This document shows positions 57,614 to 64,000 of a stretch of 64,000 nt of DNA, piece after piece. Below the pieces are notes generated by a model. That model was not told where the DNA came from and did not search any database. It saw nothing but the letters and a program-made list of their open reading frames with translations. The number at the start of each line of letters is the position of its first letter. Positions within the stretch are counted from its first letter, which is position 1. Source of the DNA: Massilia sp. 9I (GTDB lineage: Bacteria > Pseudomonadota > Gammaproteobacteria > Burkholderiales > Burkholderiaceae_D); contig NZ_LR733275.1 in assembly GCF_902506415.1 (NCBI RefSeq), positions 2,457,795 through 2,521,794 of the forward strand, written 5' to 3'. Made by a program: the position numbers and the translations under genes.

Positions 57614-57799
57614 ATGAAAAACTTTGCGAAACACCTGATCGTGGCGGGCGCTCCGCTCCTGCTCCTCATCGGCGATGCCGCCGCTGAAACCTGCGGCGGC
57701 CGCTTCGGCCCCTGCCAGGTGCCTGAACCTAGCACTCCCGCCCTCTTCATCGGCGCACTCGGCGTGATCGCCCTGGTCGCCAAGTTCCGGAAGAAGTAA
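57614..57799 (+). CDS. Minimal PEP-CTERM sorting-signal protein
   Basis: 61 aa: a signal peptide (MKNFAKHLIVAGAPLLLLIG, cut near AAA), about 12 residues with two cysteines (ETCGGRFGPC), then a full PEP-CTERM signal (VPEPSTPALFIGALGVIALV, ending FRKK). Such signals are processed by exosortase (EpsH/XrtA-type) and are typical of biofilm-forming bacteria. Almost nothing remains between the two signals, so the mature product would be a short peptide. ATG at 57614 with AAGGGAAG upstream. A strong terminator follows, so it is a single-gene unit. Confidence 0.85.
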   Translation: MKNFAKHLIVAGAPLLLLIGDAAAETCGGRFGPCQVPEPSTPALFIGALGVIALVAKFRKK

Positions 57800-57808
57800 T
57801 CCGGAACC

Positions 57809-57841
57809 GCATTGCGCGCCGGCGGCGCGCAATGCCTTTTT
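57809..57841 (+). terminator. Rho-independent terminator after the PEP-CTERM gene
   Basis: 12-bp perfect stem GCATTGCGCGCC / GGCGCGCAATGC, loop GGC, then CTTTTT. It separates the tiny gene from the giant repeat gene. Confidence 0.92.
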
Positions 57842-57949: not shown

Positions 57950-60900
57950 ATGTCAGCCACGCCGCGCGTCATCACCTTCGTCGCAGAATACGGAAATCCC
58001 GACCACTACTGGCTGGTCGGCCTCTATATCAAGGGCATCACCCCGCTCAATCCGGGCAATGCGGTGGGCGGCACGCTGTACGACCCCTGGTGCCTGGTGC
58101 GCGACATTTCGCTTCCCATCGAAGCGACATATACCGCCAACATCTATTCGTCCTACGAGTTGGCCAACCTGCAGGCCGTTCCCGGCCTCGCCAACCGGAT
58201 CCAGCTGCAAAACCTCGACAACATCAACTGGCTGCTGAATAACTACAAGCGCCTGAATGCGACCGACGGCGACGTGCAGGGTGCGATCTGGAAGATGATG
58301 GGCAGTAATCCGATGAGCCCCTACATCGGCCCGCAGAACGCCGCCAATATCGACGCCCTGATCGCGCAAGCGCTGCAGCACGATGGCTACGTGCCGGGCA
58401 TCGGCGACACCATCGGCGTGATCGTCGACCCGATGGCAGGCAGCACCCACTACCAGCCGCTGATCGTCGAGATGAAGGCGGCTTCCCTGGGCGACCGCGT
58501 GTGGCACGATGCGAACGCCAACGGCATCCAGGACGCGGGCGAAGAAGGCATTGCCGGCGCCATCGTGAACCTGGTTCGCGACCAGAACGAGGACGGCGAC
58601 TTCAATGACGCCGGCGAGCAGCTGGGCACGACCACGACCGACGCCAGCGGCAACTACGTCTTCAAGGGCCTGACCCCGAGCCTGAATTACCAGGTGACGT
58701 TCTCGCTGCCGGCCGGCTACGATCGCGTCAGCCCGCGCCAGGCCGACGGCATTGCCGGTTCGGGCCTCAACAGCGACGCTGCGGTCTCCAGCGTGGTCGT
58801 GCTGGCGCCGGGCGAAAACAACACCAGCATCGACGCCGGCTTCTTCAAGAGCGCCAGCCTGGGTGACCGCGTCTGGCTGGACGCCAACGCCAACGGCCAG
58901 CAGGACGCGGGCGAAACCGGCGTCGCCGGCGTGAAGGTGAGCCTGATCGGCGGCGGTGCCGACGGGAAGCTGTCGACCACCGCCGACAACACGCTGGTGA
59001 GCACCACCACCGACGCCAACGGCAACTACGCCTTCACCAAGCTGACCCCGGGCGTCGAATACCAGGTCCAGTTCGACAAGCCGGCCGGCAGCGTTTTCAC
59101 GCGCCAGGACAGCGGCCTTGACGCCAGCGACTCCGACGCGGGTGCGAATGGCCTGAGCCAGGTCGTCACCCTTGCATCGGGCGAGAACAACACCACCATC
59201 GACGCCGGCATCTACCTGCCGGCCAGCCTGGGCGACCGCGTCTGGCTCGACGCCAACGGTAACGGCCGCCAGGACGCGGGCGAGGCCGGCGTGGCGGGTG
59301 CGAAAGTCACCCTCATCGGCGGCGGCGCCGATGGCCTGATCGCCACCACCGGCGACAACACCATCGTCGAGACCCTGACGGACGCCAACGGCAACTACAA
59401 GTTCGAAGGCCTGACTCCGGGTACGGAATACCAGGTGCAGTTCACCGCGCCCGACGGCCGCGTATTCACCCGCGCCAACGTGGGCGAGGACGCCGGCGAC
59501 AGCGACGCGGCAAGCAGCGGCCTGTCCCAGGTCGTCAAGCTGGCCTCCGGCGAGAACAACACCACCATCGACGCCGGCGTCTACGCGCCGGCCAGCCTGG
59601 GCGACCGCGTCTGGCTCGATGCGAATGCCAACGGTCTGCAGGACAAGGGCGAAACCAGCCTCGCGAACATCAAGCTGACGCTGCACGGCGGCGGCGCCGA
59701 CGGCCTGCTGTCGACCACGGCCGACAACACCGTGGCGACCACTACCACCGGCGCCAATGGTGAATATGCGTTCACCGGCCTCGCGGCAGGCGTCGAATAC
59801 CAGATCGAATTCGACATGCCGGCCGGTAGCGTCCTGACGCGCCGCGACGCTGGCGACGACGAGACCGACTCGGACGCCGACGGCGCCAACACCAGCCAGG
59901 TGGTGGTCCTCACCTCCGGCGAATACAACAAGAGCATCGACGGCGGCGTCTACATGCCGGCCAGCCTGGGCGACCGCGTCTGGCATGACGCCAACGCCAA
60001 CGGCCAGCAGGATGCAGGCGAAACCGGCATCGCCGGCGTCAAGGTGAGCCTGGTCGGCGGCGGCGCCGACGGCCAGCTTGCGACCACCGCCGACAACACC
60101 GTGGTGAGCACGTTCACCGACGCCGACGGCAAGTACCGCTTCGACGGCCTGATCCCGGCCACCGAGTACCAGGTGCAGTTCGCGACGCCGGACGGCATGC
60201 TCGCCACCAAACAGGATAGCGGCAACGACGCCGGCGATTCCGACGCCGGCACCGGCGGCCTGTCGCAGGTCGTCACCCTCGCCTCCGGCGAAAACAACAC
60301 CACCGTCGACGCCGGCTTCTACCGCACGGCCAGCCTGGGCGACCGCGTCTGGCTGGACGCCAATGGCAACGGCCAGCAGGATGCCGGCGAAGCCGGTGTG
60401 GAAGGCGCGAAAGTCACCCTGATCGGCGGCGGCCTGGATGGCAAGCTGTCGACCACGGCGGACAACACCAGCGTCGAGACCACGACCGACGCCAACGGCA
60501 ATTACCGATTCGACGGCCTGACGCCCGGCGTCGAATACCAGGTGCAGTTCACTGCACCGGCAGGCAGCGTCTTCACCCGTGCCGACCAGGGCAATGATGC
60601 CAGCGATTCGGATGCGGGCGCGAATGGCCTGAGCCAGGTCGTCACCCTCAGCTCGGGCGAGAACAATACCACCATCGACGCCGGCGTCTACGTACCGGCC
60701 AGCCTGGGCGACCGCGTCTGGCTGGATGCCAACGCCAACGGCCAGCAGGACGACGGCGAGACCGGGGTGGCAGGCGTGAAGGTCACCCTGCTCGGCGGCG
60801 GAACCGATGGCCTGCTGTCGACCAGCGGCGACAACACCAGCATCGAGACCAGCACCGACGCCAACGGCAACTACAAGTTCGACGGGCTGACGCCGGGTGT

Positions 60901-63900
60901 CGAATACCAGGTGCAGTTCAGCGCACCGGCCGGCCAGGTCTTCACCAAGGCCGACAGCGGCAACGACGCCAGCGATTCGGACGCAGGCGCCAACGGCAAG
61001 AGCCAGGTCGTCAAGCTGGCCTCCGGCGAGAACAACACCACGATCGACGCCGGCCTGTATGCGACTGCCAGCCTGGGCGACCGCGTCTGGGTCGACGCCA
61101 ATGGCAACGGCCGCCAGGATGCGGGCGAATTCGGGGTGGCCGGCGCCAAGGTGACCTTGATCGGCGGCGGCGCCGATGGGCAGGTAGCGACCACCGGCGA
61201 CAACACCCGTGTCAGCACCACCACCGACGCCAACGGCAACTACCGCTTCGACGGCCTGACTCCAGGAATGGAATACCAGGTCAAGTTCGAGCAGCCGGCC
61301 GGCAGCGTGTTCACCGGCCAGGACAAGGGCGCGGATGACACCGATTCCGATGCCGACGCGAACGGCCTGTCGCAGATCGTCAAGCTGGCATCCGGCGAGA
61401 ACAACACCACCATCGACGCCGGCGTCTACACCCCGGCCGCCCTGGGCGACCGCGTCTGGCTGGATGCCAACGCCAACGGCCAGCAGGACGATGGCGAAAC
61501 CGGCATCGCCGGCGTGAAGGTGACCCTGCTCGGCGGCGGCGCCGACGGCCTGTTGTCGACAACTAGCGACAACACCAGCGTCAGCGTCACCACCGACGCG
61601 GGTGGCAATTACAAATTCGAGGGCTTGACCGCGGGCGTGGAATACCAGGTCCAGTTCGACGCGCCGGCCGGCCATGTCGGCACCAGGCACAACGCCGGCA
61701 ACGACGCCAGCGATTCGGACGCCGATGCCGCGGGCCTGTCGCAGATCGTGACCCTCGCGTCTGGCGAGAACAACAAGACCATCGACGCCGGCTTCTACCA
61801 GAGCGCCAGCCTGGGCGACCGCGTGTGGCTCGATGCGAACGCCAACGGCCGCCAGGATGCGGGCGAAAACGGCGTGGCCGGCGTCAAGGTCACCCTGGTT
61901 AGCGGAGGCGCCGATGGCCTGATCTCGACCACGGCGGACAACACCAGCGCCGAGACTACCACCGACGCCAACGGCAACTACAAGTTCGAAGGTCTGGCCC
62001 CGGGCGTCGAATACCAGGTGCAGTTCGCCGCCCCGGCCGGCAGCGTGTTCACCCGTGCAGACCAGGGCGACGATGCCGGCGACAGCGATGCCGGCGCCAA
62101 CGGCAAATCGCAGATCGTCAAGCTGGCCTCCGGCGAAAACAACACCACCATCGACGCCGGCGTCTACACCCCGGCCAGCCTCGGCGACCGCGTCTGGATG
62201 GACGCGAATGCCAACGGCCAGCAGGATGCGGGCGAAACCGGTGTCGCGGGCGTCACCGTGACCCTGATCGGCGGCGGCGCCGATGGCCTGGTCTCGACCA
62301 CGGCCGACAACACCAGCGCCAGCACCACGACCGACGCCAACGGCAACTACAAGTTCGAAGGCCTGACGCCCGGCACCGAGTACCAGCTGCAATTCAGCGC
62401 ACCGGCCGGCAGCATCTTCACCGCTGCCGACAAGGGCGACGACGCCAGCGACAGCGATGCCGGCGCCAACGGCAAGTCGCAGATCGTCAAGCTGGCATCC
62501 GGCGAGAACAACACCAGCATCGACGCCGGCGTCTACAAGCCGGCCAGCCTGGGCGACCGCGTCTGGCTCGACGCCAACGGCAACGGCCAGCAGGACAGCG
62601 GCGAAACCGGCGTGGCCGGCGTGAAAGTCACCCTGATCGGCGGCGGCGCCGACGGCCAAGTCGCGACGACCGCCGACAATACTAGCGCCGAGACCACCAC
62701 CGACGTCAACGGCAACTACAAGTTCGACAACCTCGCGCCTGGCATGGAATACCAGGTCAAGTTCGATAAACCCACCGGTACCGTGTTCACCGCCCAGGAC
62801 AAGGGCGCAGACACCAGCGACTCGGACGCGAGCAGCGCCGGCATGTCCCAGGTCGTCAAGCTGGCCGCCGGCGAGAACAACACCACCATCGACGCCGGGG
62901 TCTACAAGACCGCCAGCCTGGGCGACCGCGTCTGGCACGACGTCAACGCCAACGGACAGCAGGATGCGGGCGAGACCGGCGTGGGCGGCGTGAGCGTGGT
63001 CCTGATCGGCGGCGGCGCCGATGGCCTGATCTCGACCACCGCCGACAATACCAGCGCGACCACCACGACGGACGCTAACGGGAACTACAAGTTCGAGGGC
63101 TTGACCCCGGGCATGGAATACCAGGTGCAGTTCGTCGCCCCGGCCGGCGCCGTCTTCAGCCCCGTCGACAAGGGCGACGATGCCAGCGACAGCGATGCAG
63201 GCAGCAACGGCAAGTCGCAGATCGTCAAGCTGGCCTCCGGCGAGCACAACTCGACCATCGACGCCGGCGGCTACATGACGGCCAGCATCGGCGACCGCAT
63301 CTGGGCCGACGCCAACGGCAACGGCATCCAGGACGCGGGCGAAGCCAGCGTCGCAGGTGTCGTCGTCAACCTGGTCAATGCGGCCGGCGCCACGGTCGCA
63401 ACCCGCACCACCGGTGCGGATGGCCTCTACCTGTTCGACAACCTGACGCCGGGCGACTATCGCGTCGACGTCAACCTCGCCAGCCTGCCGAGCGGTTATG
63501 TTGTCACGACCAGGAACGCGAGCGGCAGCACCGCGCTGAACGACAGCGACGCGGATCCGACCACCGGCCGCACCGCCTACACCACTCTCGAATCGGGCGA
63601 GTCCGACCGCAGCTGGGATATCGGCATCAAGGCGCGCTCGGTCGGCATCGACATCGAAAAGCTGGTGCATGTCGAATATACGACGCCGGCCGCAAGCGCC
63701 CCGGCAGAAGGCTTGACCCCCGGCTTCTGGAAGAACCACACCGGCGCCGGCGGCGCTCCGCTGAGCGGCTGGCCGGAGACCGGCCTGTCGCCGAGCGCCA
63801 GCTACGAGGCCCTGTTCGGAGTCGACGTTCCGAACTCCGCGCCTACCCTGCTGCAGGCGCTCAGTGCCAATGGCGGCGGCGTCGAAGCGCTGCTGCGCCA

Positions 63901-64000
63901 CTCGGCCGCGGCGCTGCTCAATGCCGCCAACCCGTACATCAACTACCAGTACACCACGGCCCAGGTCATCTCCATGGTGAAGTCCGCATTCGCGAGCGGC
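57950..64000 (+). CDS. Giant SdrD-B-repeat surface protein with thioester-like N-terminal region (3' end beyond window)
   Basis: First 2017 codons of a gene still open at the window edge. Residues 1-177 form an N-terminal region with no signal peptide; Cys48 (DPWCLVRD) and Gln110 (INWLLNNY ... GDVQGAIW) match the Cys and Gln of Gram-positive thioester adhesin domains. SdrD-B-like units follow, each starting ASLGDRVW-[LH]DANANG and ending GENNTTIDAG: one of 124 aa, 12 of exactly 123 aa, one divergent. A region with LTPGFWKNHTG, common at the end of such proteins, is next. The ATG at 57950 has AAGGA upstream. Likely a calcium-binding surface or biofilm protein. The secretion route is unknown: T1SS C-terminal signal or PEP-CTERM would lie downstream. 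Confidence 0.9.
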   Translation, partial: MSATPRVITFVAEYGNPDHYWLVGLYIKGITPLNPGNAVGGTLYDPWCLVRDISLPIEATYTANIYSSYELANLQAVPGLANRIQLQNLDNINWLLNNYKRLNATDGDVQGAIWKMMGSNPMSPYIGPQNAANIDALIAQALQHDGYVPGIGDTIGVIVDPMAGSTHYQPLIVEMKAASLGDRVWHDANANGIQDAGEEGIAGAIVNLVRDQNEDGDFNDAGEQLGTTTTDASGNYVFKGLTPSLNYQVTFSLPAGYDRVSPRQADGIAGSGLNSDAAVSSVVVLAPGENNTSIDAGFFKSASLGDRVWLDANANGQQDAGETGVAGVKVSLIGGGADGKLSTTADNTLVSTTTDANGNYAFTKLTPGVEYQVQFDKPAGSVFTRQDSGLDASDSDAGANGLSQVVTLASGENNTTIDAGIYLPASLGDRVWLDANGNGRQDAGEAGVAGAKVTLIGGGADGLIATTGDNTIVETLTDANGNYKFEGLTPGTEYQVQFTAPDGRVFTRANVGEDAGDSDAASSGLSQVVKLASGENNTTIDAGVYAPASLGDRVWLDANANGLQDKGETSLANIKLTLHGGGADGLLSTTADNTVATTTTGANGEYAFTGLAAGVEYQIEFDMPAGSVLTRRDAGDDETDSDADGANTSQVVVLTSGEYNKSIDGGVYMPASLGDRVWHDANANGQQDAGETGIAGVKVSLVGGGADGQLATTADNTVVSTFTDADGKYRFDGLIPATEYQVQFATPDGMLATKQDSGNDAGDSDAGTGGLSQVVTLASGENNTTVDAGFYRTASLGDRVWLDANGNGQQDAGEAGVEGAKVTLIGGGLDGKLSTTADNTSVETTTDANGNYRFDGLTPGVEYQVQFTAPAGSVFTRADQGNDASDSDAGANGLSQVVTLSSGENNTTIDAGVYVPASLGDRVWLDANANGQQDDGETGVAGVKVTLLGGGTDGLLSTSGDNTSIETSTDANGNYKFDGLTPGVEYQVQFSAPAGQVFTKADSGNDASDSDAGANGKSQVVKLASGENNTTIDAGLYATASLGDRVWVDANGNGRQDAGEFGVAGAKVTLIGGGADGQVATTGDNTRVSTTTDANGNYRFDGLTPGMEYQVKFEQPAGSVFTGQDKGADDTDSDADANGLSQIVKLASGENNTTIDAGVYTPAALGDRVWLDANANGQQDDGETGIAGVKVTLLGGGADGLLSTTSDNTSVSVTTDAGGNYKFEGLTAGVEYQVQFDAPAGHVGTRHNAGNDASDSDADAAGLSQIVTLASGENNKTIDAGFYQSASLGDRVWLDANANGRQDAGENGVAGVKVTLVSGGADGLISTTADNTSAETTTDANGNYKFEGLAPGVEYQVQFAAPAGSVFTRADQGDDAGDSDAGANGKSQIVKLASGENNTTIDAGVYTPASLGDRVWMDANANGQQDAGETGVAGVTVTLIGGGADGLVSTTADNTSASTTTDANGNYKFEGLTPGTEYQLQFSAPAGSIFTAADKGDDASDSDAGANGKSQIVKLASGENNTSIDAGVYKPASLGDRVWLDANGNGQQDSGETGVAGVKVTLIGGGADGQVATTADNTSAETTTDVNGNYKFDNLAPGMEYQVKFDKPTGTVFTAQDKGADTSDSDASSAGMSQVVKLAAGENNTTIDAGVYKTASLGDRVWHDVNANGQQDAGETGVGGVSVVLIGGGADGLISTTADNTSATTTTDANGNYKFEGLTPGMEYQVQFVAPAGAVFSPVDKGDDASDSDAGSNGKSQIVKLASGEHNSTIDAGGYMTASIGDRIWADANGNGIQDAGEASVAGVVVNLVNAAGATVATRTTGADGLYLFDNLTPGDYRVDVNLASLPSGYVVTTRNASGSTALNDSDADPTTGRTAYTTLESGESDRSWDIGIKARSVGIDIEKLVHVEYTTPAASAPAEGLTPGFWKNHTGAGGAPLSGWPETGLSPSASYEALFGVDVPNSAPTLLQALSANGGGVEALLRHSAAALLNAANPYINYQYTTAQVISMVKSAFASG
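58853..63280 (+). repeat. Twelve tandem 369-bp in-frame units
   Basis: The GCC-AGC-CTG (Ala-Ser-Leu) unit start recurs every 369 bp: 58853, 59222, 59591, 59960, 60329, 60698, 61067, 61436, 61805, 62174, 62543, 62912, and the following unit at 63281. No unit differs in length. Sequence varies moderately, with near-identical blocks between units. A related 372-bp unit precedes them (58481-58852). Confidence 0.95.

Follow-up and report, generated by a model that had tools for sequence, protein, structure and literature searches.

A probable class-I-like thioester domain at the N-terminus of a giant SdrD_B-repeat protein of Massilia, encoded next to an exosortase-type mini-protein

The first 177 residues of a giant repeat protein of Massilia sp. 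9I very probably form a thioester domain (TED). Its gene was found in the window, the 64,000-nucleotide stretch of contig NZ_LR733275.1 analysed here, where the open reading frame starts with the ATG at 57950 on the forward strand and runs past the window end. The full gene encodes 2839 residues, with 2469 bases outside the window (L004, 2045-10564). We consider it likely that the domain is a class-I-like TED used for covalent attachment. We read the protein as a type-I-secreted, SdrD_B-stalked covalent attachment protein, a variation on the TED theme in Gram-negatives. Internal-thioester adhesins are described from Gram-positive bacteria (PMC4450167, PMC6194298), and further TED clusters exist in fibrillar adhesins according to PMC9210967. 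The titles and abstract beginnings covered by our literature search, with subscription journals mostly outside it, contained neither a proteobacterial TED nor a link between TEDs and exosortases. If the reading is correct, a TED on probably type-I-secreted SdrD_B fibres of a Gram-negative would extend covalent attachment to another cell envelope.

Table 1. Features of the locus in window coordinates
Feature	Position	Strand	Basis
61-residue PEP-CTERM mini-protein	57614..57799	+	Pfam PEP-CTERM 22.4 bits, cut-off 20.7
Terminator-like hairpin (12 pairs, loop 3, T tract) between mini-protein gene and giant gene	57809..57835	+	
Thioester-type domain, residues 1-177	57950..58480	+	Conserved residues, profile matches in relatives, fold searches
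Cys48, proposed thioester Cys	58091..58093	+	Invariant; sole Cys of the protein
Predicted helix 106-117 with QxxΦW motif	58265..58300	+	AF2 model, alignment
Gln110 of QxxΦW motif	58277-58279	+	Translation, invariant in alignment
Trp114 of QxxΦW motif	58289-58291	+	Translation
Gln169 (YQPLI), proposed thioester Gln	58454..58456	+	18/18 invariant; register with known thioester Gln
SdrD_B repeat stalk	58481..64000, gene continues beyond window	+	Pfam, repeat reading

Conservation across the family points to a Cys-Gln pair. Eighteen distinct domains were aligned, that of the window and 17 relatives, some of which share merely 25% identity with it. Five columns are invariant (C48, W94, Q110, A141, and Q169), and N97 and W114 are nearly so. 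Translation bears out the original prediction of one Cys, at position 48, in residues 1-177 and of NWLLNNY (residues 93-99) ahead of V-Q-G-A-I-W (109-114) with Gln110. The same single Cys is found when residues 1-183 or the whole protein of 2839 residues are counted. Gln169, one of eight Gln residues in the domain, was absent from the residue list of that prediction. The TED hallmark of a conserved Cys and a downstream Gln is present as C48 and Q169 in all 18 domains; in TEDs these are the sole fully conserved residues, according to PMC4450167. Against the TED patterns [YFL]C-phi-zeta and phi-Q-zeta-phi-phi, the window has W-C-L-V, which departs from the first, and Y-Q-P-L-I; the Cys motif reads YCLH (L044), YCIE (L055), and YCVS (L058, L061) in relatives.

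We propose an internal thioester between Cys48 and Gln169. A single Cys also occurs in four complete proteins (L034, 2051 residues; L035, 2542; L037, 2666; and L068, the surroundings of L044, 2232) and in the partial L036 protein. The remaining eight of the 14 proteins counted, relatives and own, have 4 to 22 Cys each, so the single-Cys state is not universal. A TED fold devoid of a thioester, acting in non-covalent binding or as a structural cap, would be compatible with the low confidence of both structure models described below, and a sequence cannot reveal a bond. We nevertheless regard it as unlikely, because Cys48 and Gln169 stay invariant over domains as distant as 25% identity and five complete giant proteins hold this Cys as their only one.

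From the sequences and the models, the expected partner of Cys48 is Gln169, not Gln110. The original prediction had placed the bond between Cys48 and Gln110, and the invariance of both residues in the 18 domains agrees with such a pair. However, Gln110 lies within helix 106-117 of the window AF2 model, at the place of the non-thioester QxxΦW Gln of TEDs, and its sequence VQGAIW matches the helical TQxxΦW motif; Gln169 immediately precedes strand 171-176. PMC4450167 places the QxxΦW Gln of TEDs in the central helix and assigns the thioester to another Gln; it also reports that mutagenesis of a Cpa TED found both the Gln and the Trp of TQxxΦW dispensable for the thioester. The register of the known thioester Gln is instead occupied by Gln169, as both models agree, and a Cys48-Gln110 bond is therefore very improbable. 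By end register in VIA, which presumes an ungapped alignment over the last 7-9 residues, Gln169 falls on Gln267 (5a0d, 5a0g), Gln261 (5a0l), and Gln247 (5a0n), and Gln175 of the L036 model lands on the same three residues. Gln575 of Cpa is presumably consistent with this register as well. PMC4450167 names Gln267, Gln261, and Gln247 as the residues that form the thioester in CpTIE, SfbI, and PnTIE, respectively. Gln110 and Trp114 would then form the helical QxxΦW motif beneath a Cys48-Gln169 thioester.

The spacing between Cys48 and Gln169, 121 residues, is near that of class I TEDs (129 in CpTIE, 152 in SfbI, and 153 in PnTIE, computed from the numbering in PMC4450167). It is unlike the 188 residues between Cys68 and Gln256 of the class II pLS20 protein (PMC8092201). 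Class II TEDs (BaTIE, pLS20 TIE) share with our protein the Cys-Gln thioester principle and the stalked adhesin layout, and they have an inserted beta-sandwich according to PMC6194298. An hhalign comparison of the 17-member profile with six class II TEDs yielded no match (probability 0.3, E 0.17, 20 columns, wrong register).

Comparison of the predicted structure of residues 1-177 with known TEDs, the check proposed for this domain, placed TED entries at the top of both the Foldseek and the VIA lists. Mean pLDDT is 57.5 for the AF2 model of the window domain, in which residues 1-51 lie below 50, and 59.2 for a second AF2 model, that of the 51% identical Azohydromonas relative L036. For the window model, VIA ranks 1-9 all contain TEDs (Z 5.9-4.0) and the next row is unrelated (2.4); these nine entries represent five distinct domains, since four are one Cpa protein and two are CpTIE. 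The top four Foldseek chains are CpTIE TEDs (E 0.11-0.19). For the L036 model, VIA ranks 1-11 contain TEDs (Z 5.6-3.6, next row 3.4), with rank 11 (5a0l, Z 3.6) level with rank 12, which is unrelated (3.4). On the Foldseek side, the first seven chains contain TEDs (E 0.022-0.065). The entry 5dcq (FNE), which bears the title of an adhesin, is taken by us to contain a TED. The class II entry 6fx6 appears in the L036 VIA list at rank 17 (Z 3.1) amid unrelated rows. Near the Cys, the VIA alignments of the window model are out of register: against 5a0d_A, residue 54 pairs with residue 102, well ahead of Cys138, in a part of the model that is unreliable. The predicted fold thus resembles a TED in low-confidence models, with Foldseek E values of 0.02-0.19 and Z of at most 5.9. 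These scores are middling, and what persuades us in the modelled structures is that TEDs head both lists.

Sequence profiles connect the window domain to known TEDs through its relatives. Among the isolated domains of the 17 relatives, L055 (25.9 bits), L058 (23.8), and L073 (23.4) exceed the 22-bit cut-off of the Pfam TED family, PF08341, and L060 (19.5), L061 (18.6), and L059 (15.4) match it below the cut-off. The L058 score falls to 20.3 bits in a whole-protein scan, and full-length L061, L060, and L059 have no TED listed by Pfam at the limits used. NCBIfam TQXA (TIGR03934) matches L059 with 12.6 bits, against a cut-off of 30.4. A profile of the window's relatives recovers L055 with E 7e-16, and the 17-member profile, built without L073, finds it with E 3e-27 when run on the frames of 14 loci. 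Since the window-relative profile finds L055, and L055, L058, and L073 pass PF08341, a chain of homology leads from the window domain to TEDs. The family call of the original prediction is thereby supported from two sides, by the three relatives over the Pfam cut-off and by the TEDs that lead both fold searches.

Direct searches with the window domain itself give no convincing match. The Pfam scan of the domain and of the 2016 in-window residues returned no PF08341 match, and the window domain and 12 family members gave chance-level matches or none against Pfam, NCBIfam, and PDB sequences. PF08341 detected the positive control pLS20; it matched neither the window's own genome nor the control genomes, and the own-genome negative consequently proves little. 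The lack of a direct profile match is what an unrelated alpha/beta domain, converging on a Cys and a Gln with another role, would also produce. Such convergence is scarcely credible in view of the homology chain to Pfam TEDs over the cut-off and the lead of TEDs in two fold searches.

After the TED, 13 consecutive repeats of 123-124 residues follow, and Pfam delimits 14 SdrD_B stretches in the window part of the protein and four in the remainder. The TED would cap a giant fibre of ~18 SdrD_B domains that is made without a signal peptide. Each of the 13 repeats opens with eight residues that read ASLGDRVW or nearly so and include no Lys. According to PMC12617251, a Lys-based isopeptide is predicted for some SdrD_B domains, and isopeptide domains, SdrD_B included, occur in Gram-negatives too. 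Because the first eight residues of the repeats hold no Lys, a Lys-based isopeptide may be absent here. In its place, the repeats bear DANANGxQD-like stretches.

By reading, the N-terminus MSATPRVITF is not a signal peptide, and the C-terminus PVAVVGQPLPVM completes a protein with neither the Sec signal nor the LPXTG anchor that define Gram-positive TIE proteins. We class the protein as the bearer of a TED-type domain and not as a TIE protein. For the giant fibre, type I secretion is the probable export route. The TED gene of the Thiobacillus locus L038 is followed by genes for a secretion ATPase of this type (TIGR03375, 784.9 bits against a cut-off of 693.1), an HlyD adaptor (TIGR01843, 381.7 bits against 208.65), and a TolC-like protein that the contig end truncates (102.1 bits, short of the 225.15 required). 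In the Rhodobacter locus L059, type I secretion ATPase and HlyD genes lie upstream of the TED gene. No type I secretion gene was seen in the surroundings of the window gene, and elsewhere in the same genome there is a gene for a PrtD-type ATPase (770.9 bits against a cut-off of 510.15). Downstream of the window gene are two genes for GH92 glycosidases. LapA-like adhesins are giant, type-I-secreted proteins. Our protein is like them in the absence of a signal peptide, the very long repeats, and the type I secretion genes at two loci, and unlike them in that its N-terminus is a TED-like domain. In the mechanism we propose, the fibre would leave by type I secretion and the TED would fold outside the cell; an amine on a target would open the thioester to give a lasting amide link, leaving the fibre covalently bound. 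The original prediction had envisaged, if the domain was real, a proteobacterial adhesin that binds covalently and sits on SdrD-B stalks. The architecture fits that description, and we infer the covalent bond and its target.

The TED gene is preceded, at a distance of 150 bp, by a gene for an exosortase-type mini-protein. By reading, the mini-protein consists of a signal peptide, ~11 residues (ETCGGRFGPCQ), and a PEP-CTERM sorting signal. The genome has two exosortase genes and 33 PEP-CTERM matches over the cut-off, 31 of which are at least 197 codons long; the short frames are that of the mini-protein (67 codons) and one of 41. The hairpin between the two genes is no more than a consensus match, since the stretch has two such sites against 1.0 expected by shuffling. 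It could yield more mini-protein than fibre.

The pairing of the two genes recurs across the family. Of the 18 loci, 15 have exactly one gene for such a mini-protein, of 47-74 residues, at most 500 bp from the TED gene and in the same orientation; none was found away from TED genes in the 290,596 bases scanned at the 18 loci. The scan rule was drafted after most examples were known, so it gauges specificity better than sensitivity, and it was widened to VPIP once a laxer scan revealed the mini-protein of L068, missed at first. For the mini-proteins of L041 and L059, the matched frame began at a start codon ahead of the more likely one. The mechanical scan found no mini-protein in L039, L069, and L070, the last two of which are cut by contig ends. 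In ten beta/gamma loci, classed by organism name or kinship, the mini-protein gene comes before the TED gene; in five alphaproteobacterial loci it comes after. The TED, in turn, is C-terminal in L055 and in five alphaproteobacterial plasmid proteins.

The five relatives on alphaproteobacterial plasmids are comparable to exosortase E/VPEID-CTERM systems (TIGR04161, TIGR04162): each encodes a mini-protein of the VPEI type, four of the five have xrtE after it, and the L073 mini-protein is annotated VPEID-CTERM in its record. In contrast to these systems, the four mini-proteins of L058-L061 score 29.5, 29.7, 30.6, and 32.0 bits, under the TIGR04161 cut-off of 33, and those of the beta/gamma loci are mostly PEP-type (9 of 10, with VPIP in L068). 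Two VPEID-CTERM genes over the cut-off (L074, L075), found in 385 genomes of the class of G790, have no TED within ~1.5 kb, and such mini-proteins are thus not always TED partners. The ectodomains of these two proteins are glycine-rich.

The mini-protein is probably a partner of the TED fibre, and may be its receptor, anchor, or export partner. In the proposed mechanism, the next-door exosortase-type membrane peptide would act in this partnership. Alternatively, the protein may be a classical adhesin whose thioester captures an amine of a foreign surface, with the mini-protein incidental or only regulatory. We give this reading, which is compatible with the thioester part of our explanation, an even chance. 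In its favour, the TED sits at a protein end, SfbI is linked to fibrinogen through its TED (PMC4450167), and the TED protein of pLS20 promotes conjugation (PMC8092201). On the other hand, the mini-protein gene adjoins in 15 of 18 loci and is absent elsewhere in the scanned DNA. This linkage persists though the TED switches ends between two groups and the gene order changes, which makes an incidental mini-protein hard to hold.

The partnership could also be more specific, with the thioester as an anchor, in place of or in addition to a harpoon, by which the TED of the fibre covalently joins the adjacent exosortase-processed peptide, for example via its N-terminal amine. We regard this as conceivable and rather doubtful; the fibre itself carries no exosortase signal. 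If true, it would describe a two-component Gram-negative system of covalent surface attachment in which type I secretion, sorting by exosortase, and thioester chemistry come together. More generally, since the mini-protein has nearly no ectodomain beyond its sorting signal, the pairing with a TED fibre offers a candidate function for 'empty' exosortase substrates, and it is testable in the environmental genus Massilia.

Compared with class I TEDs (PF08341: SfbI, Cpa, CpTIE, PnTIE), the window domain shares the Cys, the central helical QxxΦW, the C-terminal phi-Q motif, the predicted fold, and a terminal place in a stalked surface protein. It differs in its occurrence in Proteobacteria, the SdrD_B stalk, the absence of a visible Sec signal or LPXTG, a sequence below Pfam detection, the Cys motif W-C-L-V, and the adjacent exosortase-type gene.

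The distribution of the domain is rare and patchy. It was found in three of 61 near genomes, the window's own among them, and was kept in 5 of 294 genomes in a family search, 4 of 369 in a class search, 3 of 398 in a phylum search, and 1 of 289 (from two matches) in the class of G790; these counts include genomes found in earlier searches. The family search had matched 45 of the 294 genomes at E up to 1, and 40 were rejected (E 0.0165 or worse). In the class search, 11 of the 369 genomes had given matches at E up to 0.1, and seven were rejected (E 0.0045-0.069), including L045, L047, and L048, whose translations resemble unrelated enzymes. G1207, in the class of G790 (E 0.0046), was left out, and two Cetobacterium matches (E 0.1 and 0.3) were rejected. 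Viral scans found no relatives.

The 17 relatives come from named genomes (8), the class search (3), the phylum search (1), and plasmids (5), after removal of the duplicates L002 (L034), L003 (L037), L007 (L035), L008 (L041), L054 (L044), and L056 (L055). The eight named-genome loci belong to Massilia (3), Azohydromonas, a Thiobacillus MAG, Variovorax, a Methylobacter MAG, and Noviherbaspirillum. The plasmid searches gave Paracoccus, Rhodobacter, Limimaricola, Alloyangia, and Rhodobacteraceae SC52, all Alphaproteobacteria by record. L055 (G790) is nearest to these plasmid relatives and is probably alphaproteobacterial. By reading, one relative of 368 codons (L043/L070) has a signal peptide. 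It also has an additional N-terminal region, shows no stalk of SdrD_B repeats that we could see, and keeps the same Cys/Gln/Gln pattern. The L055, L058, L059, L060, L061, and L073 proteins end in a tail of the DCLC, DCVC, or DCLIL type.
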